From an uncultured Pseudomonadales bacterium (GTDB lineage: Bacteria > Pseudomonadota > Gammaproteobacteria > Pseudomonadales > Pseudohongiellaceae): a stretch of 37,235 bases of DNA. Below are positions 5,909 through 34,357 of this stretch, in pieces. Position numbers and translations under genes: made by a program. The number at the start of each line of letters is the position of its first letter. Within the stretch, counting starts at the first letter, position 1. Location: contig CASQMQ010000022.1 of assembly GCA_949430125.1 (NCBI GenBank), positions 1-37,235 of the forward strand. The letters run 5' to 3'. The notes beneath the pieces are model-generated. The model was not told the origin of the DNA. It did no database searches and saw nothing but the letters and a program-made list of their open reading frames with translations.

Positions 5909-6265
5909 GGCTGCAGCGAATGCTCTGCACCCACTAGCTAACAAGAATCGTTAATAACAGAAACCTCCTCTCCAGTATTGGCAATAACGATAGATGGACT
6001 AATGGTTACGATCAATTAGTCTGAGGTGCTGGGAGCAACAGGTTAGATACTTTACTACGCGCCATTTCCCTTCCAGACACCTGTAGGGAAACTGGATGTA
6101 GGGCCCCTAAATACTCTATCAGGGAAACCCGAAGTGGGAACATCCCTCTATGTTGCAGCGCAACCTTATAATGCAGAAGGACTCGTAATTGGTCACTTTT
6201 TCGGCGATCGTTAGGGTAGAATGGCGACCCAGCAGCCACCAATATTTCATCTAAGTAATTATTCC

Positions 6266-8176
6266 ATGCCTCTAGTTCGCCTCGATAAAGTTGCTCTCAA
6301 TTTTGGTACTCATATCCTTCTCGATGAAGTCAACTTCACTCTGAAGAAGGGTAGTAAAATTGGATTGCTAGGCCGTAATGGTGCTGGCAAAACCACCTTC
6401 ATGAAAGTCATCGCAGGTTCGATGCAGCCCGACAGCGGCGAGCGCTGGCTTAGGCCTGGAGTAGAGGTGGCGTGGCTAGAGCAGTCATTACCCGAAGCCG
6501 ACGAGCAATCTGTCTATGACATGGTAGCAGGCGGCCTCTCTGAAGTGGGTGAGCTCCTAAAGCAGTACCATCACATGATTGCCGACTACGAGAATGCCGA
6601 CATGGCAAAACTCGAGCGCGTGCAGGGTGCGTTGGAAGCGAAGCAGGGTTGGAGCCTGGGACAAAAAGTAGATACAGTAATTACACAACTTCGATTGCCG
6701 GCAGACAAACTCATGTCGGAATTATCCGGTGGTTGGCGCAAGCGCGTGGCCTTGGCGCGCGCACTGGTAAGAGAGCCAGAATTTTTGCTTCTCGATGAGC
6801 CGACCAATCACCTCGACGTGCCGGCGATAGAATGGCTAGAGAAGCAACTGCAGGAATATAACGGCGCAGTCTTGCTCGTTACTCATGACAGAACCTTTCT
6901 GCAGAATGTAGTTAACAAGATCGTAGAGATCGATAGAGGACACCTATACGAATTCGAAGGAACGTTTCAGAAATTCCTAGACTTTCGCGAACAGCAGCTC
7001 GCCAGCGAAGAGAGAGCGAATAAATTATTCGATAAGAAACTGGCTGAAGAAGAAGTCTGGATCCGACAAGGAATCAAGGCGAGACGCACGCGTAACGAGG
7101 GTAGGGTTCGTGCATTAGAGGCTTTGCGACTGGAGAGGGGCGCGCGCAGAGAACTTGAGGGAAGTGCGAATTTTAAGCTGAACACCACTGAGAGTTCGGG
7201 AAAGATTGTGGCGGTGCTGGAAGACATCAGCCACAGTTTTGATGAGCGAGTTGTTATCAAGGATTTTTCTACTACAGTCATGCGTGGCGACCGCATAGGT
7301 ATCGTCGGTGCGAACGGCGCGGGCAAGTCGACGCTGCTGAAGATCTTACTGGGCAAACTGACTGCTCAGGAAGGCACCGTAAAACTGGGATCAAAATTAG
7401 AGGTTGCCTACTTCGATCAGTTACGCGAACACCTCGACATGGAAAAAAATCTGATCGATAACGTAAGCGGCGGTTCGGACTACATCGAGATCAATGGCCA
7501 GAATAAGCATGTGATCAGCTATCTCGGCGACTTCCTCTTCGCGCCAGATAGAATTCGCACACCGGCCAAAGCGCTCTCCGGTGGTGAGCAGAACCGGGCG
7601 ATACTCGCGAAGGTGTTTAGCCGACCAGCAAACATTCTGGTGTTAGACGAACCGACCAACGATCTAGATATCGAGACCCTGGAGTTGCTAGAAGACATAC
7701 TATTGAAGTTTGATGGAACCGTACTACTGGTTAGTCACGACAGGCAGTTCATGGACAATGTGGTTACTAGCCTTATGGTGTTTGAAGGTGATGGTAAGAT
7801 CGGTGAATATGTCGGTGGCTACAGTGACTGGGCGCGCAAAGGCGGCAAGTTATTTAGCTTCGAGGACAGTGAAAAATCCAGCGGTGGTTCATCGGCCACG
7901 CAGTCGACAGACAAGCCTGAGCCGAAAAAAGCTCCGAGCAAGAAACTCTCCTACAAGGACCAGCGCGAACTCGAGGCGTTGCCTGCAAAGATAGAAGCGC
8001 TTGAAATAAGTCAGTCTGAGTTAGAGCAGCGCATGTCTAAACCTGAGTTTTACGACAATCAGGACGACGGTGGAAAGTCTGTAGAGGAAACGCTGAAGCA
8101 AGTGGCGGAAGTGCAGAGCCAACTTGAGAAATCCTATGAGCTCTGGGAAGAGTTGGAGAAATTGCGAAATTCCTAA
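6266..8176 (+). CDS. uup: ABC-F family ATPase, Uup-like
   Basis: Two ABC cassettes (GRNGAGKTT / GANGAGKST; two LSGG and two LLDEPTNHLD/VLDEPTNDLD motifs) plus a C-terminal coiled coil typical of Uup. ATG at 6266 (MPLVRLDKVALNFG) preferred over the ORF start at 6221. Confidence 0.9.
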   Translation: MPLVRLDKVALNFGTHILLDEVNFTLKKGSKIGLLGRNGAGKTTFMKVIAGSMQPDSGERWLRPGVEVAWLEQSLPEADEQSVYDMVAGGLSEVGELLKQYHHMIADYENADMAKLERVQGALEAKQGWSLGQKVDTVITQLRLPADKLMSELSGGWRKRVALARALVREPEFLLLDEPTNHLDVPAIEWLEKQLQEYNGAVLLVTHDRTFLQNVVNKIVEIDRGHLYEFEGTFQKFLDFREQQLASEERANKLFDKKLAEEEVWIRQGIKARRTRNEGRVRALEALRLERGARRELEGSANFKLNTTESSGKIVAVLEDISHSFDERVVIKDFSTTVMRGDRIGIVGANGAGKSTLLKILLGKLTAQEGTVKLGSKLEVAYFDQLREHLDMEKNLIDNVSGGSDYIEINGQNKHVISYLGDFLFAPDRIRTPAKALSGGEQNRAILAKVFSRPANILVLDEPTNDLDIETLELLEDILLKFDGTVLLVSHDRQFMDNVVTSLMVFEGDGKIGEYVGGYSDWARKGGKLFSFEDSEKSSGGSSATQSTDKPEPKKAPSKKLSYKDQRELEALPAKIEALEISQSELEQRMSKPEFYDNQDDGGKSVEETLKQVAEVQSQLEKSYELWEELEKLRNS

Positions 8177-11108: not shown

Positions 11109-13214
11109 TTAGTCCGAAAGACTAAAAACGTACAGTGCGTTGCCATTGCCCGGATGCCTGATATCCGGCGCAACAACTCGTGGGACAGTCCGTGGACTAA
11201 CTCCGCGCGCACCCATTGCGGTAGTCACTGCAATATACTGCTTTCCGTCTATGGCAAAGCTAACAGGGTGACCCTGCACTGATGTGCCAAGCCGTGTCTC
11301 CCAGAGTATCTCACCATTACGCGCATCGAAGGCTCGGAAGCGCCGATCGAGGTCGCCGACGAACACAAGGTTTCCCGCTGTGGATATAGTTCCTGTCAAG
11401 AAAGCCGCTCGTTGTTCGTAACTCCAGACCTCTTCCATAGAATCTACGTTATATGCTGCGAGTTTGCCCATATTACCGTCTGAACCTGGCATTTCGAACC
11501 AGCGGCGATTTGCCGCTGTGCCACCGGCACCCTGCACAAGCGGCACTTCTCGTGCCGATATTTCCAAGCAAGACTGACTCAGAGGAATAATCAGATTCGC
11601 GCTAGGTTCGTGATAGGTCATGGAGTGCCAGTCTTTTCCACCGGCTGTGCTCGGGCAAACGCTTATCCATTCGTCCAGTTGCGCATTGGCAATGTCGTCA
11701 CGATAGGTTACAGCCCCAGTCACAGAGTCTATGTTAGTGAACGCGTTCTGGAAGATAGTCTCCAGATGGGAGATGAACTCACCACTCACTCTATCGTGCT
11801 TCCACAGAATGCCGTGCTTGCCGATTGAGAAAACGAGTTTGTCATCGCCACGGTCAATCAGGACACGTTCGAACACCTCGTCAAGATCCAGCGCCTCGGC
11901 GGGCACGTGCTGAAAAAACCAATCGAGAGAGCCGTCATCTACATTGATGGCTACGGTGGAATTGGTGAATAGACCGGTATCGAAGATGGAGAGATTTCGA
12001 CTGGCCGGCATCCATGGTTTTTGCTGTGCGGTTCCCCAATAGGTGATTTTTAGCTCAGGATCGTAACTTCCTGTAATCCAAGTTTCGCCGCCCGCACGAA
12101 ATATGTCATCTATGTTGCCCCAAGTATCACCGCCAGAATCACCACTTTTGGCTATGGTGTTGAAGCGCCATAGCACCTCACCATTGTCTGCATCTACTGC
12201 GCTGATATAGCAGTCTTCCTCGATGTAGCGAGAGCAACCTAACAGGCCTTGGATGATTTTACCGTCGGCTACTATAGGCCCGCTGGAATTCCCGAAGCCC
12301 TTGCTGCCATCGGCGATTTCTGTTTCCCAAACCGGCTCGCCTGTACGTGCATCGAGTGCCAACAATCGAGCATCGGTTGTGGCGTGAATAATCTTATCCT
12401 CATAGATCGCGATGTTGCGCATGTCCTCGCTATCCTCAGGACCCGCGTGATGCTCCCAGATTAGCTCGCCAGTCTTCCCATCCAATGCTTGAATTATGTT
12501 GCTAGGATTGATCAGATAGATGGTGCCATCGTATACCAGCGGCGAAGGCTCCGAGTCGCCATCGTGCATACTCCAGACCCATTCCAGTCGCAGGTCATCC
12601 ACGTTGTCCACATTGATCTGATCGAGAGGACTATAGCTCCAGGCCTGATAGTTGCGGCGCAACATCGGCCAGTCACCGGGAGCCGGGTTGGTGAGCATCG
12701 CATCGGGAATCGGCCGAAAATTTTCGACAGTGCCAGGAAGGATTACACCGGTAGGTGCAATGCTTGCCGGTGGGACAATCAAATTCGCTGCATTGGGAAT
12801 ATTGATCGCTAAGGGGTAATCGGAACTTGCTGTTAGCAGGGGATTGCTGTCGGCGACTCCGCTTCTGCGCATGACGTGAGCAACGATATTGATATAGTCA
12901 TTATCGCTAATAGCAGCATTCTCACCCGGAGGCATGTTCGCTTTGATGTAGTTATAGAAGTCACCCGGCGATTGCATCCCCCAACTTGCAAGAAATGCTT
13001 GCCCGCTTAGTATTGGGCCTAGCGCGCTGCCTTCGAGACTAGCACCATGGCAGGCCGCGCAGTTCGCGGAGTAAGCCCGGACTCCAGCTTCCGCTTGTGA
13101 GCTGAAGCTGGCAACAGAAGTGACTGCACTCTCTCCTTCAATCTCGTTCTCACCGCCGCAGGCAACGAGCAGGCCCAACCCAAGTATTCCTAATGCATGA
13201 TTTCTTAATTTCAT
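11109..13214 (-). CDS. Lipoprotein quinohemoprotein: N-terminal cytochrome c domain plus PQQ-dehydrogenase-type beta-propeller (paralog B)
   Basis: Start at MKLRNHALG (13214); lipobox GLLVAC; CAACH heme motif; [32 protein letters not shown]; propeller blades ...[12 protein letters not shown]...; [17 protein letters not shown]. Confidence 0.9.
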
Positions 13215-13274
13215 TTTTAGCAATACCCCTTGTGGTTGTAGGCGTTGAACTCTGCTCATGGCGACTAATCGCAT

Positions 13275-15374
13275 CTAGTCAGGAAGAGCAAATACATAGA
13301 CTGCATTTCCCGAACGCGGATACTTGATCTCAGTAAGAATTACACCTGGTACTGCACGCGGGCTAGTTCCACCAAGCGCTGCCGTTACCGCGATATATTG
13401 CTTGCCATCTACAGCGAAGGAAACAGGGTGGCCTTGCACAGACGTTCCTAGTCTAGTTTCCCAAACGATCTCGCCGGTAGTTACATCGAAGGCCTTGAAA
13501 CGTCGATCCAGATCGCCAACGAATACCAGATTGCCACCGGTTGACATCGTGCCAGTATGAAAAGAGGCGCGTTGCTGATGGCTCCACACTTCTTCCATGG
13601 TATCTACATTATAGGCGCCGATCTTGCCGAGGTTGCCATCCGTTCCGGGCATCTCGAAGAATTTACGGCTAGCAGCGAGTCCGCCACCGCCCTGTACTAG
13701 TGCTACTTCCCGCGCCGCGTTCTCTAGACAGGTCTGGCTAAGCGGTGCGATCATGGTTCCAGTAGGAGGATGGTAGGTCATCGAGTGCCAGTCCTTACCA
13801 CCGGCGCTACTTGGACAGGCTGATGTCCACTCGTTTAGCTTCGCATTCTGAATATCTTCTCGATAGGTAACCAGTCCAGTCTCATCGTCGATGTCGGTGA
13901 AGGCATTTTGAAAAACAGTTTCCTTGTAGTCCTGAAATTCACCCGAGACTCTATCGTTCTTCCACAGAATGCCGTACTTGCCTAACGAGAAAACCAATTT
14001 TTCATCGTCACGATTTACCAGAATGCGCTCGAATACTTCATCTAGATCTAGCGCCTCAGCTGGCACGTGTTGGAAGAACCAATCAAGTTCGCCCGTGTCG
14101 GTGCTCACAGCAACAGTCGAATTCGTGAACAGACCCACGTCATTGATCGTCAGGTGGCGACTAACAGGTACCCACGGCTTCTGCTGCGCGGTGCCCCAAT
14201 AAGTAAGCTTGAGGTCAGGATCGTAGCTGCCAGTAATCCATGTCTCGCCACCGGCACGGAACTGGTCGGGCAACTCACCCCAAGTGTCGCCGCCGGGCTC
14301 GCTTGCCTTGGCGATAGTATTGAAGCGCCATTCCAACTCGCCAGTGTTGGCATCGTGTGCGCTTATATAGCAGTCCTCAGGTATGTAGCGAGCACAACCC
14401 GCAAGTCCGAGAATGACCTTGCCATCGGCTACGATGGGCCCGCTGGAATTAGAGAAGCCTTTACTAGCATCGGCAACCTCTGTCTCCCAAACCTGCTCAC
14501 CGGTGCGAGCATCAAGCGCTACCAGGCGCGCATCGGTTGTAGCCTGAATGATCTTGTCGTCGTAGATAGCTATGTTACGCATGTCTTGACGGTTCGCCGG
14601 GCCTGCCCAGTTCTCCCAAATAAGTTCACCAGTAGCAGCGTCGAGAGCCTGAATGACATTGCCCGGGTTAATCAGATACATGATACCGCCATAAACTAGT
14701 GGGGCAGGTTCAGAATCGCCCTCATGCATATTCCAAACCCATTCAAGAGTCATGCCGCCGACGTTGTCGGTATTGATTTGACTCAGTGGGCTGTAACTGT
14801 GGCCGTAGTAGTTGCGGCGGTGCATAGGCCAATCGGCCGGATCTGGGTTCTCCAGCATGGCATCATTAACAGGAGTGAAGTTCTCTACGGTACCTGCGAT
14901 TGTTATGCCTTGCGGAGGCTCAGGCTCGGGGCGTGAGCGTCGTTCAACAACCTGCGAGATATTACCTGCAATTTCAAAATCTGTGCTAGCGGTTAGTGCG
15001 TCAGTAATTGCGTCTACACCATTGGAGGACAATATATGCGCGACAATATTGATGTAATCCTCATCGCTTATACCGTCGTTCCCGCCTGGAGGCATATTCG
15101 CTTGAATATTGTTCAATAACAGAGCTGGGGTCTGTGTACCCCATCGCTGCAGAAATGAGTTGCCGGAAAGTATCGGGCCCAGTGTCGTGCCTTCTAGACT
15201 CGCGCCATGGCAGGCAGCGCAATTGCTGGCAAATGAGGCCGCTCCCTCCTCCGCCTGCGAATTAAACGCCACAGAGGCTGCAGGCGCCGCGCTCTCTCCA
15301 CCGCAAGCAGCGAGTAGCAAAGCTAAGGCGGATGCGGAAAGTGCGCGAGTAGTGTTCTTATTGATTAATTTCAT
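13275..15374 (-). CDS. Lipoprotein quinohemoprotein: N-terminal cytochrome c domain plus PQQ-dehydrogenase-type beta-propeller (paralog A)
   Basis: Start at MKLINKNTT (15374); lipobox ALLLAAC; CAACH; extensive collinear identity with 11109..13214 (e.g. [39 protein letters not shown]). Confidence 0.9.
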   Translation of the reverse strand: MKLINKNTTRALSASALALLLAACGGESAAPAASVAFNSQAEEGAASFASNCAACHGASLEGTTLGPILSGNSFLQRWGTQTPALLLNNIQANMPPGGNDGISDEDYINIVAHILSSNGVDAITDALTASTDFEIAGNISQVVERRSRPEPEPPQGITIAGTVENFTPVNDAMLENPDPADWPMHRRNYYGHSYSPLSQINTDNVGGMTLEWVWNMHEGDSEPAPLVYGGIMYLINPGNVIQALDAATGELIWENWAGPANRQDMRNIAIYDDKIIQATTDARLVALDARTGEQVWETEVADASKGFSNSSGPIVADGKVILGLAGCARYIPEDCYISAHDANTGELEWRFNTIAKASEPGGDTWGELPDQFRAGGETWITGSYDPDLKLTYWGTAQQKPWVPVSRHLTINDVGLFTNSTVAVSTDTGELDWFFQHVPAEALDLDEVFERILVNRDDEKLVFSLGKYGILWKNDRVSGEFQDYKETVFQNAFTDIDDETGLVTYREDIQNAKLNEWTSACPSSAGGKDWHSMTYHPPTGTMIAPLSQTCLENAAREVALVQGGGGLAASRKFFEMPGTDGNLGKIGAYNVDTMEEVWSHQQRASFHTGTMSTGGNLVFVGDLDRRFKAFDVTTGEIVWETRLGTSVQGHPVSFAVDGKQYIAVTAALGGTSPRAVPGVILTEIKYPRSGNAVYVFALPD

Positions 15375-15386
15375 GCTAAACCTCAA

Positions 15387-20097: not shown

Positions 20098-20619
20098 TTA
20101 CGAATCTGAACTATCCAGAACTTGCTGTAAACGTTGTCGTGGCTCGCCTTTTACTATTTTATAGTCCAATTCGTACTCTTTAAGCTTTTTAAGATATAGA
20201 TCGAATAATTCGTCGCGGTTGTGCGGATTTTCTCGGCGTGGATCGGCTTGCCAAGGAATATTCGAATCACACAAATAATAATGCCTGCAAAAATTATTCT
20301 TTTTGATGTTATTTTCAAAAGTACTATAAATCCACGAGTCGCAGTATCCATACTTCACTTCGCTCCAGATCATAATAACCAGCAAATCAGTGTCGCAAAT
20401 AATTCTTTCTGGCAAGTGAGAAAGAACCGTTAGTTCCTGTTTGTGTTGTTGCTTGGCAATTTCTAATAAGTCGTGTTGCTGATAAGAACCGTTTCCTTTG
20501 AGATAATCTCTGGCAGCTTCTGCAACAAGAGGTGTTTTCCAGTAATTAGCAAGCTGGGTTGCGAGGGTAGTTTTCCCTGAAGATTCAGGGCCCGTAATAA
20601 CTAATATTTCAGTGCTCAT
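20098..20619 (-). CDS. NadR C-terminal-like AAA_28 ATPase/kinase
   Basis: 173 aa; ITGPESSGKTTLATQLA Walker A; EAARDYL; IICDTDLLVIMIWSEVKYG, as in the nicotinamide riboside kinase domain of NadR. Confidence 0.85.
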   Translation of the reverse strand: MSTEILVITGPESSGKTTLATQLANYWKTPLVAEAARDYLKGNGSYQQHDLLEIAKQQHKQELTVLSHLPERIICDTDLLVIMIWSEVKYGYCDSWIYSTFENNIKKNNFCRHYYLCDSNIPWQADPRRENPHNRDELFDLYLKKLKEYELDYKIVKGEPRQRLQQVLDSSDS

Positions 20620-20881
20620 TACAATAACTCTTGTGTACCGCTATAGTTCCCATGAAGGCTATTTCTGTTGTGATGATAACTAAAAAACTGTAAAAAATAA
20701 CTCCTAATAGAGATAACAGCCAGCTGCAAGAAAGTCGATTGGTAACTGCAAGAGTCCACTGCCAATTTTATTCGTGTGCCATTGATCATGGCTATGGAGT
20801 TACCAGCTGCTCAGCCATACCACCTACTATTTCCGGAAAAATCTCTCTAACTATTGCTTAAGTCAATGCTATACTAATCCC

Positions 20882-20975
20882 AGTTCCTTAGGGGTGGTCA
20901 ATTGACCTGAGATTCTGGTGAGAGCCAGTCAACCCTAGAACCTGATCCGGTTAATACCGGCGTAGGAAAAGGATG
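20882..20975 (+). promoter_or_regulatory. TPP (thiamine pyrophosphate) riboswitch, THI element
   Basis: ttccttAGGGGTGgtcaattgacCTGAGAttctggtgagagccagtcaACCCtaGAACCTGATCCGGttaataCCGGCGTAGGaaaagg contains the conserved THI-box cores in order; located ~65 nt upstream of the TonB receptor ATG. Confidence 0.96.
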
Positions 20976-21040
20976 CATACCACATCTCATCACACGTCCA
21001 AATAATACCGGGTCTCTTAAATTAATTTTTGGAGAGACTC

Positions 21041-23125
21041 ATGTCTAATGCTTTTTACAAACCTACTATAGCCTTACTCTTAGTCGCCCTTCTGAGCTCC
21101 ACGCGAGGTCTTGCTGCGGCCGCAGAAAATGCCATCGAAGAAATCGTCGTTACAGCAGATTTTAGAGCTAGAAGTGAGTTGGATATGGCGACTAGCGTCA
21201 CAGTGATGACGGAAGCAGTTATAAAATCTAGGTCAGCCCAGCATTTTGAGGAGTTGGCGAACGCCGTTCCCAATGTTAACTATGCTTCTGGGTCAAATCG
21301 CGCGCGTTTTTTCCAGATCCGGGGCATCGGCGAGCGTAGTCAATTTGTAGCACCCATTAATCCCTCGGTTGGCTTTCTCGTGGACAATGTAGATTTTAGC
21401 GGGGCGGCCACCATTGCTACCATGCTGGATGTTAAGCAGGTTGAAATACTGCGTGGACCTCAGGGAACGAGATACGGCGCCAATGCGCTAGCTGGCCTGA
21501 TCAACGTCAAGACTCACGATCCAGAGGATCAGTTTGCAGCGAGTTTGAAACTCGGCGCGGCAGATTACAATACACAAGCGATTACGGCAGTGGTAACCGG
21601 GCCGGTTACCGAAAGCGTTAGGGCTCGATTGGCGGTGGGGAGCCATCGATCCGATGGATACTATGAAAACTCATTTCTGCGAACAAAGAGAAATAATTCA
21701 CAAGACGAACAATCCATTCGTGGGAAATTAAGCGCAGAAATGTCTGCCAATTGGCAGTTGAATTTTTCTCTGTCCCACGTCGATATCGATAACGGCTACG
21801 ATGCATTTACTCTGGATAATTCACGTACCACGCTCTCTGATGAGCCAGGTCAGGACCAACAAGAATCTCTTGCATTGGCCATTGACAGTAGCTGGCAACT
21901 CGATAATTTTGATTTAAAGCTCATCGTGGGTCTCGCCGATTCCGATATGGAATATGGTTACGATGAGGACTGGACCTTTGCAGGCATACACCCAGATGGC
22001 TATATGTCACGAGACAATTACATCCGTGATAGGAAAACTCAGAGTCTGGAGTTCAGATTCCTATCCAACGATAGTAGCAGGCTGTTTGCCGATTCAACCG
22101 ACTGGCTGTTCGGTGTGTACACATTAAAAAGCAGTGAGTCATTGAAGCGAGAGTACACCTTCCTCGCTTCTGACTTTCGCAGCGACTACGATTTTGATAC
22201 TGCCGCGGTCTTCTTCCAATTGGATTCATCTCTTAGTGAAAAACTTACCCTGGAAACAGGTTTGCGAGTCGAAAGACGCGACACGATTTATAGAGACTCA
22301 GAATTGCTTGGCTTTTCGCCCACGGAAACTCTATGGGGCGGTAGAGTTGCTGCTAAGTACCTTTTAAATTCGAATACCATAGCCTACGCCAGTATTGCTC
22401 GGGGATATAAGGCCGGTGGGTTTAATACCGATGGTACATTGGATGCAGATTTACGAGAGTTTGGCGAAGAGTTCCTAGTTGAATATGAAATGGGAATTAA
22501 ATCGAGCTTACTCGAAAACAAATTACATCTTAAAGCGGCTTGGTTTCATGATGATAGGCACGAACAGCAGGTAAAGAGTTCCATTGGAAGAATTCGTGCC
22601 AACGGAAGTACTGAATTTGTCGATTTCATAGGCAACGCGGCCGAAGGGACAAATAACGGTGTAGAATTTGAAGCGGTTTGGTATCCCTCAGAGCAATTGG
22701 GTCTAACAGCCAGTTTAGGGTTGTTGGATGCGACCTTTGATTCTTTTGTGAATTCTGCAAATCAGGATCTATCAGGGCGTGATCAAGCCCATGCGCCGGG
22801 ATATATGGCACATTTGGCAGCTGATTATAATCTAGGTGCCTGGTCTCTTTCAGTTTCACTCGATGCGAAAGATGATTTCTATTTTTCCGACAGTCATAAC
22901 ATACAAAGCGATCCCTATGAGCTGTTAAATATGAACCTCAGCTATTCTAGCGAACAATGGACCCTGAGTTTTTGGGGACGTAATCTTACCAACCAAGATT
23001 ACGCTGTTAGGGGGTTCTTCTTTGGGGAGTTCGGCAATGATCCAAGAAAAGGATACGCCCCTGAGCCCTATGTTCAATTCGGTGAACCACGAATGGTTGG
23101 AGTTAGCTATGAGGTCCAGTTATGA
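21041..23125 (+). CDS. TonB-dependent outer-membrane receptor (putative thiamine/precursor uptake)
   Basis: ATG at 21041 with ggag SD; signal peptide; EEIVVTA TonB box; plug motif QVEILRGPQGTRYGANALAG; C-terminal ...VGVSYEVQL. Immediately downstream of a TPP riboswitch. Confidence 0.93.
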   Translation: MSNAFYKPTIALLLVALLSSTRGLAAAAENAIEEIVVTADFRARSELDMATSVTVMTEAVIKSRSAQHFEELANAVPNVNYASGSNRARFFQIRGIGERSQFVAPINPSVGFLVDNVDFSGAATIATMLDVKQVEILRGPQGTRYGANALAGLINVKTHDPEDQFAASLKLGAADYNTQAITAVVTGPVTESVRARLAVGSHRSDGYYENSFLRTKRNNSQDEQSIRGKLSAEMSANWQLNFSLSHVDIDNGYDAFTLDNSRTTLSDEPGQDQQESLALAIDSSWQLDNFDLKLIVGLADSDMEYGYDEDWTFAGIHPDGYMSRDNYIRDRKTQSLEFRFLSNDSSRLFADSTDWLFGVYTLKSSESLKREYTFLASDFRSDYDFDTAAVFFQLDSSLSEKLTLETGLRVERRDTIYRDSELLGFSPTETLWGGRVAAKYLLNSNTIAYASIARGYKAGGFNTDGTLDADLREFGEEFLVEYEMGIKSSLLENKLHLKAAWFHDDRHEQQVKSSIGRIRANGSTEFVDFIGNAAEGTNNGVEFEAVWYPSEQLGLTASLGLLDATFDSFVNSANQDLSGRDQAHAPGYMAHLAADYNLGAWSLSVSLDAKDDFYFSDSHNIQSDPYELLNMNLSYSSEQWTLSFWGRNLTNQDYAVRGFFFGEFGNDPRKGYAPEPYVQFGEPRMVGVSYEVQL

Positions 23126-23382
23126 AAGCATCAGTTGATATAAGCCTCTATCCATTGAAAGATGAATATATTCCCGCTATTAAGGAATTTATCGAAAGAG
23201 TGCAGCGATACCCCGAGGTCGCGGTGGTACGTAATGACCTATCGACGCAGCTCTATGGTAACTATGAGCTGATAATGGATCTTTTGAAGGTTGAGGTTAG
23301 GCTAAGCTGGGAGAAATACGGTAAAAGTATTTTTGTTATCAAACTACTGGGAGACGATCTCCGGGGTCTCTCAAGTGATTGA
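23122..23382 (+). CDS. Thiamine/HMP-binding YkoF/MTH1187-like single-domain protein
   Basis: 86 aa; MKASVDISLYPLKDEYIPAIKEFIERVQRYPEVAVVRNDLSTQLYGNYELIMDLL...FVIKLLGDDL; no signal peptide; ATGA overlap with the receptor gene. Confidence 0.8.
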   Translation: MKASVDISLYPLKDEYIPAIKEFIERVQRYPEVAVVRNDLSTQLYGNYELIMDLLKVEVRLSWEKYGKSIFVIKLLGDDLRGLSSD

Positions 23383-23989
23383 ATTTCTGAACACTGTCGG
23401 GGAACAATTCCTGCTAAATTCATTGCTGGAATTATCGGCAGTAGCGTTTGCGATTGCCTATCTTGTTCTGGCGGTCAGAGAAAATATTCTTTGCTGGTTA
23501 GCAGCCAGCGTTTCTACATTCATTTTCCTTTACATCTTCTGGGGTGTGAATCTCTACATGGAGTCTGGTCTGCAAGTTTACTATCTTGCGATGGCAGTCT
23601 TCGGCTGGTATCAGTGGCGAAGCGCCAAGGACGGTTCGACGAACTTACAGGTTTCGATGTGGAGCATGCGGCAGCATTTAACAGCCCTAACCCTTATCGC
23701 CTTGCTTACCTTTATATCAGGGTATCTGCTGAATTCTGGAACCGATGCTCAACTGCCATATTTAGATTCATTGACGACATGGGGAAGCGTTGTTACTACC
23801 TATATGGTGACGCGCAAGATATTGGAAAACTGGATCTATTGGCTGGTGATCGATTCTATTTCAATCTATCTGTATATCGACCGTGAGCTGTATTTCACCG
23901 CAATACTGTTTGCTGTGTATATAGTCATTATCTTCTTTGGCTGGCTCGCCTGGTCAAAAAGATACCAACCGAATATGAAAACCGCTTAA
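23375..23989 (+). CDS. pnuT: PnuC-family transporter, probable thiamine transporter PnuT
   Basis: GTG start at 23375 ((V)IEFLNTVGEQF); multiple TM helices; VYYLAMAVFGWYQW and ENWIYWLVIDSISIYLYIDRELYFTAILFAVY are PnuC hallmarks; TPP riboswitch operon context. Confidence 0.85.
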   Translation: MIEFLNTVGEQFLLNSLLELSAVAFAIAYLVLAVRENILCWLAASVSTFIFLYIFWGVNLYMESGLQVYYLAMAVFGWYQWRSAKDGSTNLQVSMWSMRQHLTALTLIALLTFISGYLLNSGTDAQLPYLDSLTTWGSVVTTYMVTRKILENWIYWLVIDSISIYLYIDRELYFTAILFAVYIVIIFFGWLAWSKRYQPNMKTA

Positions 23990-27576: not shown

Positions 27577-29006
27577 TTACATTGCGAGCAAGATAACTAG
27601 GCCACATACAGCGGCGGTGATTTGGCTGCGGCGGTCTGTTAGTGCAAACAACACCGGGTCTTCATCTAGCTCTCCGCGCCGCGCGAGTGCCCAGATATGC
27701 CATAGCAAGAAGAGAAGAAGAGGGCAGATGGCCCACAACAGTAGGGGATTGTTGTAGAGCTCGGTTGTCGTGGGTTCGTTGATGTAGAACGCGAATACAG
27801 CCACAGCCAGTAGGCCAGAGCCGCCGCCGATGGTGACTAGAGTCTGCAGATTCTCCACGCTATAGCCCCTCCCTTCGATAGAAGACTTGCCCTGATTCTG
27901 TAGGTTCAGGAATTCCGTGTAGCGCTTCACCATTGCGAGCCCCAGAAACAGGAAGAACGAGAAGGCGAGCAGATAATAGGTGGTGACTACCGAGATAGCG
28001 GCTGAGCCTGCGATGATTCTCCAGGTATAAAGAGAAGCGAGGGTTAGCACGTCAATTAGAAACAGGCTTTTCAGCAGCAAGCTATACGCAGTTGTCATCA
28101 ACCAATAGGTGAGCAATACGAAAACAAATTCAGTAGGTAGCCACAACGCGATTAGGAAACCGAGAATCAGCAATGACGGCGCGCCTAGATAGCCATAGAT
28201 TAAAGACAGGTCGCCAGAGGCGAAGGGTCGCCGAAATTTTGACTGATGCTGTCGATCGCTATTTACATCGAGCATATCGTTCAGCAGGTACACGCTGGAC
28301 GCAACGAAGCTAAAGCTAAAAAATGCGACACAAGCTTGCAGCAGTAGATTCGGTTGATTCAATTGGTGAGAAAGAATCAGTGGCAGAAATATCAGTGCAT
28401 TCTTCAACCACTGATGCGGTCGTATCGCCTGCCAAAATTTCTTCAACGTCGATTGGGGTGCGTCGAAGTGCTGAATTTTCTCGCTCCCGTGCTGCAGATT
28501 TGCAGCGAGCGACTTTTTACAGTTGACGAGAATAACTTCGCTGGCTTCAGACCACACGGCGATATCGTCTTTCGAGTTTCCTGCGTAGACAAACTCGCCT
28601 CCCGGGTCTAGTTGCAGTATCCGTGTTACCTTGTTCTTCGATTTCAGGTTGTGATCTTCGTCGCTACCCATAGCGTCGATGAACAATCCCAGATGATCGC
28701 TCACCTGTCTTACCGGTAATTGACTTGATGCCGAAATAAGTACGATGTTGCGTCCGCGCTCTACTTCCTTTTTCAGGTAGTCGTTGAATTCGGTATTCAA
28801 GGCAGTAACTCTACGGGGATGTGAACGCGTTTGGATAATTGATGCTTTAGGTTCGCTTTTCCTTTAATTAGCCAAATTGGAATCAACAGCGCTTGGAAAA
28901 TACTCTTCTTGAGCAATAATAAAATCGACTCATACAGAAGGTCCGTTTTGATTACGGTGCCGTCGAGGTCGACGTAGAGCGTTGATTGGTTGAGTGAGTT
29001 TGGCAC
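27577..29006 (-). pseudogene. HAD-UbiA fusion prenyltransferase (DPPR synthase-like), broken by an apparent 1-bp deletion near 28800
   Basis: HAD start STLYVDLDGTVIKTDLLYESILLL lies in ORF 28797..29765; continuation NTEFNDYLKKEVERGRNIVLISASS and the UbiA domain (HQWLKNALIFLPL; NDMLDVNSDRQHQSKFRRPFASG) lie in ORF 27577..28800. Candidate GTG start at 29006; one added base gives 476 aa. Confidence 0.8.
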
Positions 29007-29029
29007 GTTAGTCTGAGGGACTTCTCTGT

Positions 29030-29765
29030 TTAGAATTTTAGCCGCTTGAAAACAAATTCTGGGATCGCGCTGACTACGAACATGATAACTCGCCAGTAGC
29101 CGGGAGCGTAAACGGTGTGACTGCCGCGGCGGATGCTTTTCACAGATTTTCTGCGCGATGCGTTCTGGGCTAGACCACAGTGGGCCTTTAGGGAACTGCG
29201 CTGTCATAGGCGAATCCACAAGACCCGGTCTTATGTCTACTATATTTACGTTGTGTGCCAGCAGCTTGCCGCGTAAGCCCTGTAGGTAGGTTGAAACAAG
29301 GGATTTCGCGGCGCCATAGACGAAGTTGGGCTGTCGGCCTCTGTCACCCGCAACGGAGGTAATGACAGCGATCGTGCCCTGCTGCTGTTCGATAAATTTC
29401 GGAGCGAGTTCGGTTAGCAAAGAGATAACACTAATTCCGTTTGTGTTTATCTCTTTCAGTGCCTGTTTGAAGTTTTGCTCAACTTTTTCTTGATCGGGCA
29501 GGGAGCCATGGCAGATGAGCGCAATATCGACGCCCCCTAGTTCAGTAAATGCGGCGTCCAGAGTTTTCTCGTGTTCCGCAAACTTATTGAGATCAAGCAT
29601 GCTATGACTTACCTTTGATGCTCCGCGCACGAGCAAGTCGCTGGCTAACAACGCTAACTGATCATCTCGGCGTGCAATTAGATGCAGCGAGCAACCCAGT
29701 TCCGCGTAAATTCTGGCGGAGGCTTTTGCGATTGCCGACGTCGCACCAATGATAAGAACCTTCAT
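29030..29765 (-). pseudogene. SDR-family oxidoreductase, DprE2-like, with an apparent 1-bp insertion in an A-run
   Basis: N-terminus MKVLIIGATSAIAKASARIYAELG; YGAAKSLVSTYLQGLRGKL. After RIAQ the alternative frame reads KSVKSIRRGSHTVYAPGYWRVIMFVVSAIPEFVFKRLKF*, a typical DprE2-like C-terminus; removing one base in the AAAA at 29147-29150 gives 244 aa. Confidence 0.82.
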
Positions 29766-31087
29766 TGGGTCAATCCCAGTCTGTTTGATTGTAACGACGC
29801 GAATCGATTGTCCGGGTCATATTTGTTCTTGATAGTCATAAACCTTTCCCAGTTCGGGTAGCTTGCCTTAAACACTTCCTCACTCATGCGGGCATCTTTC
29901 GCAAGATAGAGTCTACCATCGTGAGCCAATACGATCCGATCTAAATCTTCTAGTAGTGGAAATAGAGCGGGTTCATTTTTGAAGTCTAGGGTCAGCGTAT
30001 AGCCGGATCGCGCAAATGACAGTAGGTTCTCATTTGAGTCACCAAATTTCTTCAATACAGTAAGGAAGGAGCCTTTGCCTTTCTCAGCAATTTTTTCTAG
30101 AACAGATGTTATACCCTCAAGCGCGCCCTCATTGGGAATAACAAACTGGTATTGCAAGAAACCTTTCGACCCATATAGGCGATTCCAATTCGAGATGCTG
30201 TCTAGCGGGAAGAAGTAGTTATCACAACCTAGAGTAGTGTTGCTCTTCTTCCTTTTCTGCATGCCAAAGTAACTCGCGTTAAAGGAAGACACAGTCGTCT
30301 TGTTGAGCAGAAATGATGGAATAGAGAACGGAACGCCTAGGCCGGACCTCTCGCGGTACATGGTGTCGGTTTTTCTATTCTTCGATGCGGCGTGCTCACC
30401 TAAATACAAGACGGACCGGCCCAAATTTTTGTCAGTGGCTAGACAGTCCAGCCAGGCGACAGAGTATTTGCTGTCAGCGTTATCTTCAATGTGTTCGAAG
30501 CATTCGGCCAGATTGTTGGCGACAAGACTTCGTTGGTTGATGTAGCTACTAGGGATGGAATCCAGAGAGAGGGTCGCATCACTGATTACTCCGGTGAGCC
30601 CCATGCCTCCGCAAGTCGCGCGAAATAGCTCGGGGTTTTCTTGCTCACTACAAGTCACCAATTCACCTGATGCTAGCACGAGGCTGATTCTCTGCACGTG
30701 TGCGCAGAAGCTGCCGTCTATGTGGTGGTTCTTCCCATGCACATCGGCAGCTATGGCTCCGCCTACGCTTACTGCCTTTGTTCCAGGCAATACGGGAAGA
30801 AAAAGGCCACGAGGGATACAGATTTTGAGTATGTCGCCTAGCTTTACGCCGGCGCCACAGCGAAGGACATTCTGCTGTTGATCGAGTTCAAGGAAGTTAT
30901 CTAAGAATCGGCTACTGACTAACTGTTCAGCGAGTGCGCTGTCGCCGTAGCTGCGACCGGAACCACGGCCAATGCACGAGGCCGATTTCTTCTGCGACGC
31001 GATAAACTTCTGCAAGGCACGCGAATCCGCGGGCTGAATCAATTCTGCTGTCGTCTTGGGGTAACGCCCCCAGCCCATGGCTTCCAT
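29762..31087 (-). CDS. FAD-binding oxidoreductase, DprE1-like (decaprenylphosphoryl-beta-D-ribose oxidase family)
   Basis: Start at MEAMGWGRYPK; IGRGSGRSYGDSAL; GTKAVSVGGAIAADVHGKNHHIDGSFCAHV; CGGMGLTGVI; C-terminal YLAKDARMSEEVF. Confidence 0.88.
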   Translation of the reverse strand: MEAMGWGRYPKTTAELIQPADSRALQKFIASQKKSASCIGRGSGRSYGDSALAEQLVSSRFLDNFLELDQQQNVLRCGAGVKLGDILKICIPRGLFLPVLPGTKAVSVGGAIAADVHGKNHHIDGSFCAHVQRISLVLASGELVTCSEQENPELFRATCGGMGLTGVISDATLSLDSIPSSYINQRSLVANNLAECFEHIEDNADSKYSVAWLDCLATDKNLGRSVLYLGEHAASKNRKTDTMYRERSGLGVPFSIPSFLLNKTTVSSFNASYFGMQKRKKSNTTLGCDNYFFPLDSISNWNRLYGSKGFLQYQFVIPNEGALEGITSVLEKIAEKGKGSFLTVLKKFGDSNENLLSFARSGYTLTLDFKNEPALFPLLEDLDRIVLAHDGRLYLAKDARMSEEVFKASYPNWERFMTIKNKYDPDNRFASLQSNRLGLTQ

Positions 31088-31106
31088 TAAATTTATCCTG
31101 TCGCCC

Positions 31107-31505
31107 TCAGGCCTGCCGCGCAAATACATATCGCTTATCAAGCTGATACTTTACACCATATCCGATGGACAATCCGATGATGGCACCCGTATAGCGAGCG
31201 ATCTTGCCACCTATGAGCGTGTCGAAGCCGAGTTCGAAGCCCCAGAAGATTGCTGTAGTGGCAACCCCCGTAAGTCCGTACAAAGTAAACTTTCCCAAGT
31301 CTTCGCGATGTGATGTGGTGATGAGCTGGAAGATATATTTCTTATCGAGCAGATACTTGCTCACTAGCCCTGTGAGAGTGCCAAACGCCATCGCCAGATA
31401 GGTGGCGAAACTGCCATCGTAGGTTCGAACCACTACTTCCTGTGCTGACAGATTGAGCAGCGTTGCAAGAACGGCGAACAGGCTATATTTGAAGGCAATT
31501 GTCAT
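31107..31505 (-). CDS. GtrA-family membrane protein
   Basis: 132 aa, four hydrophobic helices; FGTLTGLVSKYLLDKKYIF and GVKYQLDKRYVF repeats typical of GtrA. Confidence 0.88.
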   Translation of the reverse strand: MTIAFKYSLFAVLATLLNLSAQEVVVRTYDGSFATYLAMAFGTLTGLVSKYLLDKKYIFQLITTSHREDLGKFTLYGLTGVATTAIFWGFELGFDTLIGGKIARYTGAIIGLSIGYGVKYQLDKRYVFARQA

Positions 31506-32646: not shown

Positions 32647-34357
32647 GTGAAGAACGTCAATTTATTAAAGGCAGCAATTGTAGCGCTTCTGTTGATTCCC
32701 GCAATCAGCAGCGCGGCTGACAGAGTGGGAGATTTTTCACTCCTTGACCAAGATGGCTATCACCACAGCATGAGCTGGTACGACGATCATAAAATGATTG
32801 CTCTACTGGTGCAGGCTAACGACAGCCAGGCAGCAGCAGATGCATTGCCGGCGTTCGATGCCTTGAAGGCAAAGTACGATGGCCAAGGCGTTGAGTTCAT
32901 GATGATCAACCCTATGGGAAAACACAATCGCAGCGCGGTACAAGCCAAAGCGGCAGTATACGCAGTAGACATACCCATCCTGATGGATGATGCACGTGTA
33001 ATCTCCGAAGCGCTCGGCATCGAGCGAGCCGGTGAAGTACTTCTTTATAACCCACGCTCCTTCATGGTTGAGTACCGAGGTAGCGTCGCCGCTTCAGAGA
33101 AAGCCATTCAAGAGATTCTGGCGGGTGAGGACGTAAGCGTAGCCTCGGTCGCAACAAGCGGCCCGGTAATTAGCTATGCTGCTACTGCAGTGCCTTCCTA
33201 CATAGCAGATATTGCACCGATACTGGCAGACAACTGTGCAACCTGTCACCGCGAGGGCGGCATCGCTCCATTCGCGATGGACAGCCATACAATGGTCCAG
33301 GGTTGGTCTCCAATGATTCGCGAAGTTTTGATGACTAAGCGCATGCCACCGGGTCAGATCGATGGTCATATCGGTGAGTTCATCAACGATCGATTGATCA
33401 CTGATGAAGAGGTTAGAAATGTAATCGCATGGGCCGACGCAGGCGCACCTAAAGACGGCGATACCGATCCTCTTACAGAATTAACTTGGTCCACGTCTAA
33501 GTGGAGCCTGAGTGATAAGCCTGACTTGGTACTCAAAGTGCCTTCGCAGCAGGTTCCTGCTACTGGTGTCTTGGCAGTACAGAGATGTTGCGGTGAAGAT
33601 TGATCTTGACGGTAAAGACCGCTGGATACGTGGCAGCGAGTACATTCCGGGTGATCGTACCGTGCTGCATCACACTATTAACTCTCTGAACTTTCCTGAA
33701 GAGGTTGGTAAGCGAATTGGAGCGCTAGGGCGCAACAACCCGGACAAGGGCAGCATTACCGCCTATATCCCAGGCGGCACGGCGGCATTCAACCCTCCTA
33801 ACACTGGCGGTCTTTTGAAAGACGGCTCAGTCTTGAATCTTAATCTTCACTACACAACCAATGGTCGCGAGACTGTCGATGAGAGTGAAATAGGATTGTG
33901 GTTCTACCCAGAGGGTGAAATACCGACAGAGAGAATGTCAGGTCGATGTGCCTGTATTTTTCCTAACACCTGGACGAATATTCCATCAAATGACCCTGCT
34001 TTCGAGCAGACGGCGACGATAACCATTGGCAAAGATGCCAACATCTATAGTTACTTGCCGCACATGCATTTCCGCGGGAAGTACATGCGTTTCTTCGCAG
34101 ACTACCCAGATGGCTCAAGTGAAGAGTTAATCAATATCGCTCAGTTCAACTATGCTTGGCAGATGAGCTACACCTATGCCGAACCAAAGTTTGTGCCAGC
34201 GGGTACTAAGATTACCGCGGTAGGCGCGTTTGATAATTCCGCGCAGAATCCTGCGAACCCTGATCCGGAGAGAACGGTTCCCTGGGGACAGCAGAGCTGG
34301 GACGAGATGTTTTTCGGAGCGGTTCAATGGAAAAACATAGATCAAGGTGGTAACTAG
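32647..34357 (+). pseudogene. Secreted redoxin-cytochrome c-PHM-like (copper type II monooxygenase) fusion, interrupted by an apparent 1-bp insertion near 33570-33582
   Basis: ORF 32647..33603: signal peptide, thioredoxin-like domain, NCATCHREGGIAPF cytochrome motif. ORF 33512..34357 continues: YRDVAVKIDLDGKDRWIRGSEYIPGD...YSYLPHMHFRGKYMRFFADYPDGS. Removing one base gives a 569 aa protein. Confidence 0.82.

Follow-up and report, generated by a model that had tools for sequence, protein, structure and literature searches.

A NadR-like kinase proposed to convert thiamine to thiamine monophosphate in riboswitch-linked scavenging loci of Pseudohongiellaceae and Bacteroidota

A putative thiamine scavenging locus was analyzed in a 37,235-nt stretch of DNA (the window; contig CASQMQ010000022.1 of assembly GCA_949430125.1) from an uncultured member of the Pseudohongiellaceae, whose draft genome of 1.95 Mb is 69% complete. 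The locus consists of a gene for a NadR-like kinase and, divergent from it, an operon that is headed by a thiamine pyrophosphate (TPP) riboswitch and codes for a TonB-dependent receptor (TBDR), a Ykof-like protein and a PnuC-family permease (Table 1). The kinase gene lies 261 nt upstream of the riboswitch, and purK and purE are convergent to it. The receptor and Ykof-like genes overlap by 4 nt (ATGA); the 8-nt overlap between the Ykof-like and permease genes presumes a start at GTG 23375, the mechanically delimited open reading frame (ORF) opening at TTG 23333. Domain matches agree with the gene content that a first-pass annotation, made from the sequence alone, had given for positions 20098-23989, including three overlapping genes and a divergent kinase of the NadR family. 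The kinase is the biologically important part of this range, and its association spans two phyla. Comparison of family genomes revealed that the layout of kinase gene and riboswitch operon is kept in relatives; the arrangement is therefore not due to chance.

Table 1. Features of the thiamine locus, with positions in the window.
Feature	Coordinates	Strand	Evidence and remarks
NadR-like P-loop kinase, 173 aa	20098..20619	-	PF13521 E 4e-25; proposed thiamine kinase (thiamine + ATP -> TMP + ADP; TMP, thiamine monophosphate)
TPP riboswitch aptamer (THI element), heads operon	20880..20985	+	RF00059, 73.2 bits, E 9.8e-13, model 1-105
Candidate expression platform, hairpin GUCUCU/AGAGAC	21012..21038	+	would mask ribosome-binding site GGAGAG (21031-21036); sequence reading
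TonB-dependent outer-membrane receptor	21041..23125	+	PF00593 E 1e-29 (barrel), PF07715 E 7.5e-17 (plug)
Ykof-like single-domain protein, 86 aa	23122..23382	+	PF07615 26.0 bits vs cut-off 21, residues 3-57
PnuC-family permease	23375..23989	+	PF04973 E 4.4e-50; proposed PnuT thiamine facilitator

The full THI element noticed in the first pass was recovered by a covariance model search as a complete aptamer, scoring above the gathering cut-off of 54.3 bits. It is the sole RNA family over its cut-off in the window and the only RF00059 match in the source genome. The hairpin following the aptamer is present in both the minimum free energy and the centroid folds of the leader; the total z-score is only -1.19, and the expression platform is thus a reading of the sequence rather than a result. 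As this hairpin could mask the ribosome-binding site and no intrinsic terminator was found after the aptamer, translational control of the operon is suggested.

The best NCBIfam match of the kinase is the kinase part of NadR (TIGR01526, positions 164-319 only), with 62 bits against a cut-off of 341 bits. The predicted structure (pLDDT 93.8) is closest to the NadR kinase domain (8x7f_A, TM-score 0.82), followed by 1lw7 and thymidylate kinases. The fold, the P-loop, the DTD motif and the lid arginine are common to the window kinase and the ribosylnicotinamide kinase domain of NadR (8x7f, 1lw7, 6gye), whereas the nicotinamide mononucleotide (NMN) adenylyltransferase domain of NadR is missing, the lid motif is another one, and the genomic context is that of thiamine and not of NAD. 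Profile searches with the window kinase returned no match to TIGR02721 (ThiK), to APH or choline kinase families, or to thiamine pyrophosphokinase (TIGR01378).

PF13521 membership, best NCBIfam match and closest fold would all suit an ordinary nicotinamide riboside (NR) kinase, with PnuC importing NR and the riboswitch governing the receptor only. We consider this improbable, given the missing adenylyltransferase domain and a lid motif that differs from that of four NadR references. Thiamine-type kinases carry, with few exceptions, W-[EQ]-x-D-x-[LQ]-R-E where the four references have V-x-D-G-[TS]-R. In the 79 aligned thiamine-type sequences W123, D126 and R129 are invariant (79/79), and E130 is found in 77 of them but in none of the four NadR references. 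Because this reference set is small (n=4) and three of its members are phage proteins, the motif is a signature to test and no proof of substrate. A thiamine-type kinase is also encoded on a large plasmid of Persicobacter sp. JZB09 (locus L291, positions 6001-6483; 38% identity, lid motif WVYDPLRE).

The permease bears on the same alternative. TIGR01528 names it PnuC, and type-B permeases, whose genes are adjacent to and overlap the kinase gene, branch nearer the NR type, so that the substrate would not follow from the permease tree by itself. Against NR uptake, the window pnuC is located in an operon behind a TPP riboswitch. Moreover, its product groups with riboswitch- or Ykof-linked permeases, apart from the four NR-type PnuC references encoded near NadR-type genes, all of which have long branches in the tree. 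The PF04973 fold, thiamine regulation and the separation from NR-type PnuC agree with PnuT, the thiamine transporter to which the first-pass annotation had tentatively assigned the gene. NadR-PnuC pairs such as those of locus L114 (genome G002) and phages KVP40, CcrBL9 and LysYB2 also combine PnuC with a nearby NadR-family kinase, but the kinase is a full NadR-type enzyme and the PnuC proteins form a group apart from the window permease. In L114 (G002:C100, 3058-4931, minus strand), a gene for full NadR (adenylyltransferase plus kinase) overlaps the PnuC gene, a likely NR salvage pair in a ThiC-bearing genome of the same bacterial family.

The Ykof-like protein, in which no signal peptide was seen, is a possible cytosolic thiamine binder and putative carrier; its gene is linked to PnuT in both Gammaproteobacteria and Bacteroidota. 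For the receptor, the product of the gene that follows the riboswitch also in relatives, we propose a function as thiamine receptor of the Omr1/OMthi type.

Phylogenetic profiles were determined for the family to which the window belongs (Pseudohongiellaceae/OM182 type; 137 genomes). The named relatives of the source genome, mostly metagenome-assembled genomes (MAGs), are OM182, Pseudohongiella, and uncultured Pseudomonadales or Gammaproteobacteria. The kinase was present in 47 genomes (46 strong matches plus that of G067, which is cut by a contig end), the TPP riboswitch in 51, PF04973 over cut-off in 48, ThiC in 75 and full-scoring ThiE in 76. A weak kinase match in G002, namely the full NadR beside its own PnuC, was not counted. 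ThiL was detected in 135 genomes at E <= 0.001 (124 over cut-off). Thiamine pyrophosphokinase was over cut-off in none of the 137; a control search in 14 known genomes gave positives in 7. The kinase never co-occurred with ThiC or with full-scoring ThiE (0/47 each), while 46 of the 47 kinase genomes have a TPP riboswitch (Fisher p 7e-24 for kinase versus ThiC and 2e-29 for kinase versus riboswitch, both uncorrected for kinship). Weak ThiE-like matches in some kinase genomes, mostly frames of about 320 aa, fell below the cut-off and were not counted. Of the 92 genomes with a completeness of 90% or more, the kinase is found in 34, ThiC in 56, both in none and neither in two (G100, G103); 90 thus have exactly one of them. 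The kinase excludes ThiC even where it is located on another contig than the riboswitch. Five genomes carry the riboswitch without the kinase: G002, G003 and G004, all with ThiC; G103; and G066, in which the riboswitch is close to a contig end. The assignment of the operon to thiamine, already made in the first pass, is supported by the riboswitch, by the conserved Ykof-PnuT linkage and by its occurrence in genomes that have lost ThiC and ThiE.

Because ThiL is kept while pyrophosphokinase, ThiC and full ThiE are absent, the conversion of thiamine to TMP is, judged by gene content, the missing step in kinase-bearing genomes. The first-pass annotation had suggested that the kinase might trap either thiamine or hydroxymethylpyrimidine (HMP) by phosphorylation. 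Ykof domains are known to bind HMP and thiamine, which would be in line with a kinase acting on HMP or thiazole alcohol that is imported for thiamine assembly. However, the kinase-bearing family genomes lack the full ThiE needed to join both halves, and HMP-phosphate would lead nowhere; the HMP part of the suggestion was therefore dropped, and such a precursor kinase is extremely unlikely. Alternatively, the enzyme might be a thiamine pyrophosphokinase that forms TPP in one step, as no other pyrophosphokinase was found in kinase-bearing genomes and as the corresponding neighbour of pnuT in Bacteroides is tnr3 (PMC5613172). In that case ThiL would be superfluous, but nearly all of these auxotrophs, which in this family are without ThiE, retain it, and the P-loop kinase fold is like that of NadR and thymidylate kinase. 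We regard a pyrophosphokinase as very unlikely.

Support for a thiamine kinase function comes from genome G103, which is rated 100% complete and has the riboswitch, TBDR and PnuT genes but no NadR-like kinase. Here, a gene for an APH-fold kinase overlaps the end of pnuT. Its best NCBIfam match is ThiK (TIGR02721, E 6e-26, below the curated cut-off), and it is the only full-length copy among the family genomes. A ThiK-like enzyme in place of the NadR-like kinase also argues against the NR alternative. In G112, which does have the NadR-like kinase, a fragment of thiK interrupted by stop codons directly follows pnuT (E 1.5e-6, compared with 0.07 for the best of 30 shuffled sets). An in-register trace of thiK is also seen in G131 (E 0.30). 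On the simplest reading, thiK would once have been part of the operon and, with the NadR-like kinase in place, have decayed. In the window, a few codons overlapping the end of pnuT resemble thiK; the resemblance is not significant and no remnant is claimed. The other weak ThiK matches in the family (about 19-25 bits, 50-120 aa), G112 apart, were regarded as relatives of the general APH type.

As stand-in for a species tree, a phylogeny of 80 ThiL proteins was used. On it, the kinase label of the 80 genomes needs 12 changes, six of them forced by well-supported branches. ThiC changes opposite to the kinase in five of six independent pairs and never in parallel with it; the remaining pair shows no ThiC difference, as expected, since it involves G103. 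The tree thus supports repeated switching between kinase and ThiC, the number of switches being an inexact measure because some branches of this stand-in are long.

Gene neighbourhoods were conserved as well. In 37 of the 47 genomes the kinase gene and the riboswitch are no more than 1.5 kb apart, in 39 no more than 4 kb. Several layouts were seen: (i) a divergent kinase gene next to riboswitch-TBDR-Ykof-PnuT, as in the window; (ii) PnuC-kinase located 5' of riboswitch-TBDR and in the same orientation; and (iii), in genera g2, g3 and g8, a kinase gene that shares its locus with riboswitch-TBDR but not with PnuT, the latter being encoded elsewhere and, in three of four such loci examined, beside a Ykof-like gene. 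The link between kinase and riboswitch is steadier than the partner transporter, which varies more. The kinase might nevertheless work elsewhere in metabolism and merely be carried along with the cassette, as the divergent gene of the window, which the riboswitch does not control, could suggest. Linkage in several gene orders and in two phyla, together with ThiC exclusivity even on separate contigs, makes such hitch-hiking scarcely credible. The records of loci L155, L170 and L194 bear the names Klebsiella pneumoniae and Chryseobacterium gleum but appear to be mislabelled MAGs; L155 contains a Pseudohongiellaceae-type cassette (kinase identity 52%) with purE/purK nearby.

A scan of named genomes for loci similar to the window kinase yielded 80 loci, 35 of them from Bacteroidota; as selection was by kinase similarity, these 35 genomes should not be read as a random draw from the phylum. 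None of them contains ThiC or thiamine pyrophosphokinase (0/35 each); 29 encode full ThiL, and one more has it split over contigs. Several of the loci are Ykof-PnuT-kinase operons. In 5 of 32 scanned Bacteroidota loci a TPP riboswitch is located directly 3' of the kinase gene, and the gene behind it codes for a TonB receptor in all four cases checked. The kinase hence tracks loss of thiamine synthesis in two phyla, at odds with a role in NR salvage.

Taken together, gene neighbourhoods and gene loss over 172 genomes of two phyla (137 of the family, 35 Bacteroidota) make it very likely that the kinase is a non-orthologous thiamine kinase with NadR kinase fold, which feeds ThiL within a scavenging cassette of thiamine auxotrophs. 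The thiamine part of the first-pass suggestion is strongly supported by the profiles, the ThiK-like enzyme of G103, the thiK fragment and the Bacteroidota loci. Two genomic outcomes that the first pass had named as counter-evidence did not occur: the neighbourhood of kinase and PnuT proved to be conserved, and the permease did not cluster with the NR-type PnuC references used. In the proposed pathway, the riboswitch-controlled TonB receptor would carry thiamine across the outer membrane, and PnuT would pass it over the inner membrane by facilitated diffusion. The kinase would convert thiamine to TMP, which is thereby trapped in the cell and supplied to ThiL, and the TPP made by ThiL would shut the receptor-permease operon via the riboswitch. 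The kinase would thus act as a stand-in for both ThiK/YcfN (APH fold) and thiamine pyrophosphokinase.

The following points weigh against this interpretation: (i) the receptor might also admit TMP, which would make the kinase unneeded; (ii) draft MAGs are numerous in the set, and calls of absence hinge on completeness; (iii) in G100, which is 96% complete, kinase, ThiC, riboswitch and PnuC are all missing; (iv) the species tree is a ThiL stand-in with long branches, and on well-supported branches a sign test has only five informative pairs (p 0.06); (v) some g2 and g3 genomes carry kinase and riboswitch on different contigs; (vi) the window kinase itself is outside riboswitch control; (vii) a minority of Bacteroidota loci, mostly of Saprospiraceae, show no PnuC beside the kinase. 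G100 also lacks ThiE yet has ThiL, so that either a contig is missing or TMP has another source.

The cassette is of the known omr1-pnuT-tnr3 kind, but the enzyme differs. It shares a TPP riboswitch, a TonB receptor, PnuT and a thiamine-phosphorylating enzyme, here a putative one, with the omr1/OMthi-pnuT-tnr3 operons of Bacteroides (PMC5613172). Here, the pyrophosphokinase Tnr3 is replaced by the NadR-like kinase, for a putative TMP route with ThiL, and a Ykof-like gene is added. Unlike the kinase-bearing auxotrophs, B. thetaiotaomicron keeps thiamine biosynthesis (PMC5613172). With ThiK/YcfN of E. coli (TIGR02721, APH fold) the kinase would have the reaction in common, i.e. formation of TMP for ThiL, whereas fold and sequence are unrelated. 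No paper linking this kinase family (COG3172/PF13521) with thiamine was found in a search that left out subscription literature and databases such as SEED and RegPrecise. Genomes with ThiL but without ThiC, ThiE or ThiG have been scored simply as auxotrophs (PMC11346370), and a 2025 survey described MAGs of Flavobacteriales and Cytophagales that possess ThiL and Omr1 and lack key biosynthetic enzymes (PMC12236431); the proposed kinase would fill this gap.

Elsewhere in the window, three further regions were noted by eye. Positions 27577-31505 (minus strand) contain a row of FAD oxidase-, short-chain dehydrogenase-, UbiA-type prenyltransferase- and GtrA-like genes that recalls decaprenylphosphoryl-arabinose synthesis; the dehydrogenase ORF apparently extends into the beginning of a HAD domain, which may reflect a frameshift. 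Positions 11109-15386 (minus strand) contain a tandem pair of similar genes for proteins of the c-type cytochrome plus PQQ-like dehydrogenase kind, an apparent duplication. At 32647-34357 (plus strand), what looks like a single gene for a redoxin-like, haem-binding protein appears to be divided by a frameshift into a pair of ORFs that overlap in different frames.

Seawater contains little vitamin B1. If the proposed function is correct, the kinase fills the TMP gap of many mostly marine aquatic auxotrophs that have ThiL but no known enzyme for making TMP from thiamine. It is likely too, if by a slightly narrower measure, that within the NadR kinase family a hitherto unassigned branch serves as a dedicated thiamine kinase across Gammaproteobacteria and Bacteroidota, which replaced ThiK in its operon place and explains how ThiL-positive auxotrophs without ThiK or pyrophosphokinase obtain TPP from thiamine. 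The kinase would then be a genome marker for thiamine salvage, its annotation as 'NadR-like' or 'AAA family ATPase' would be corrected, and a change of substrate from NR to thiamine would have occurred in both the transporter family (PnuC/PnuT) and its kinase partner.

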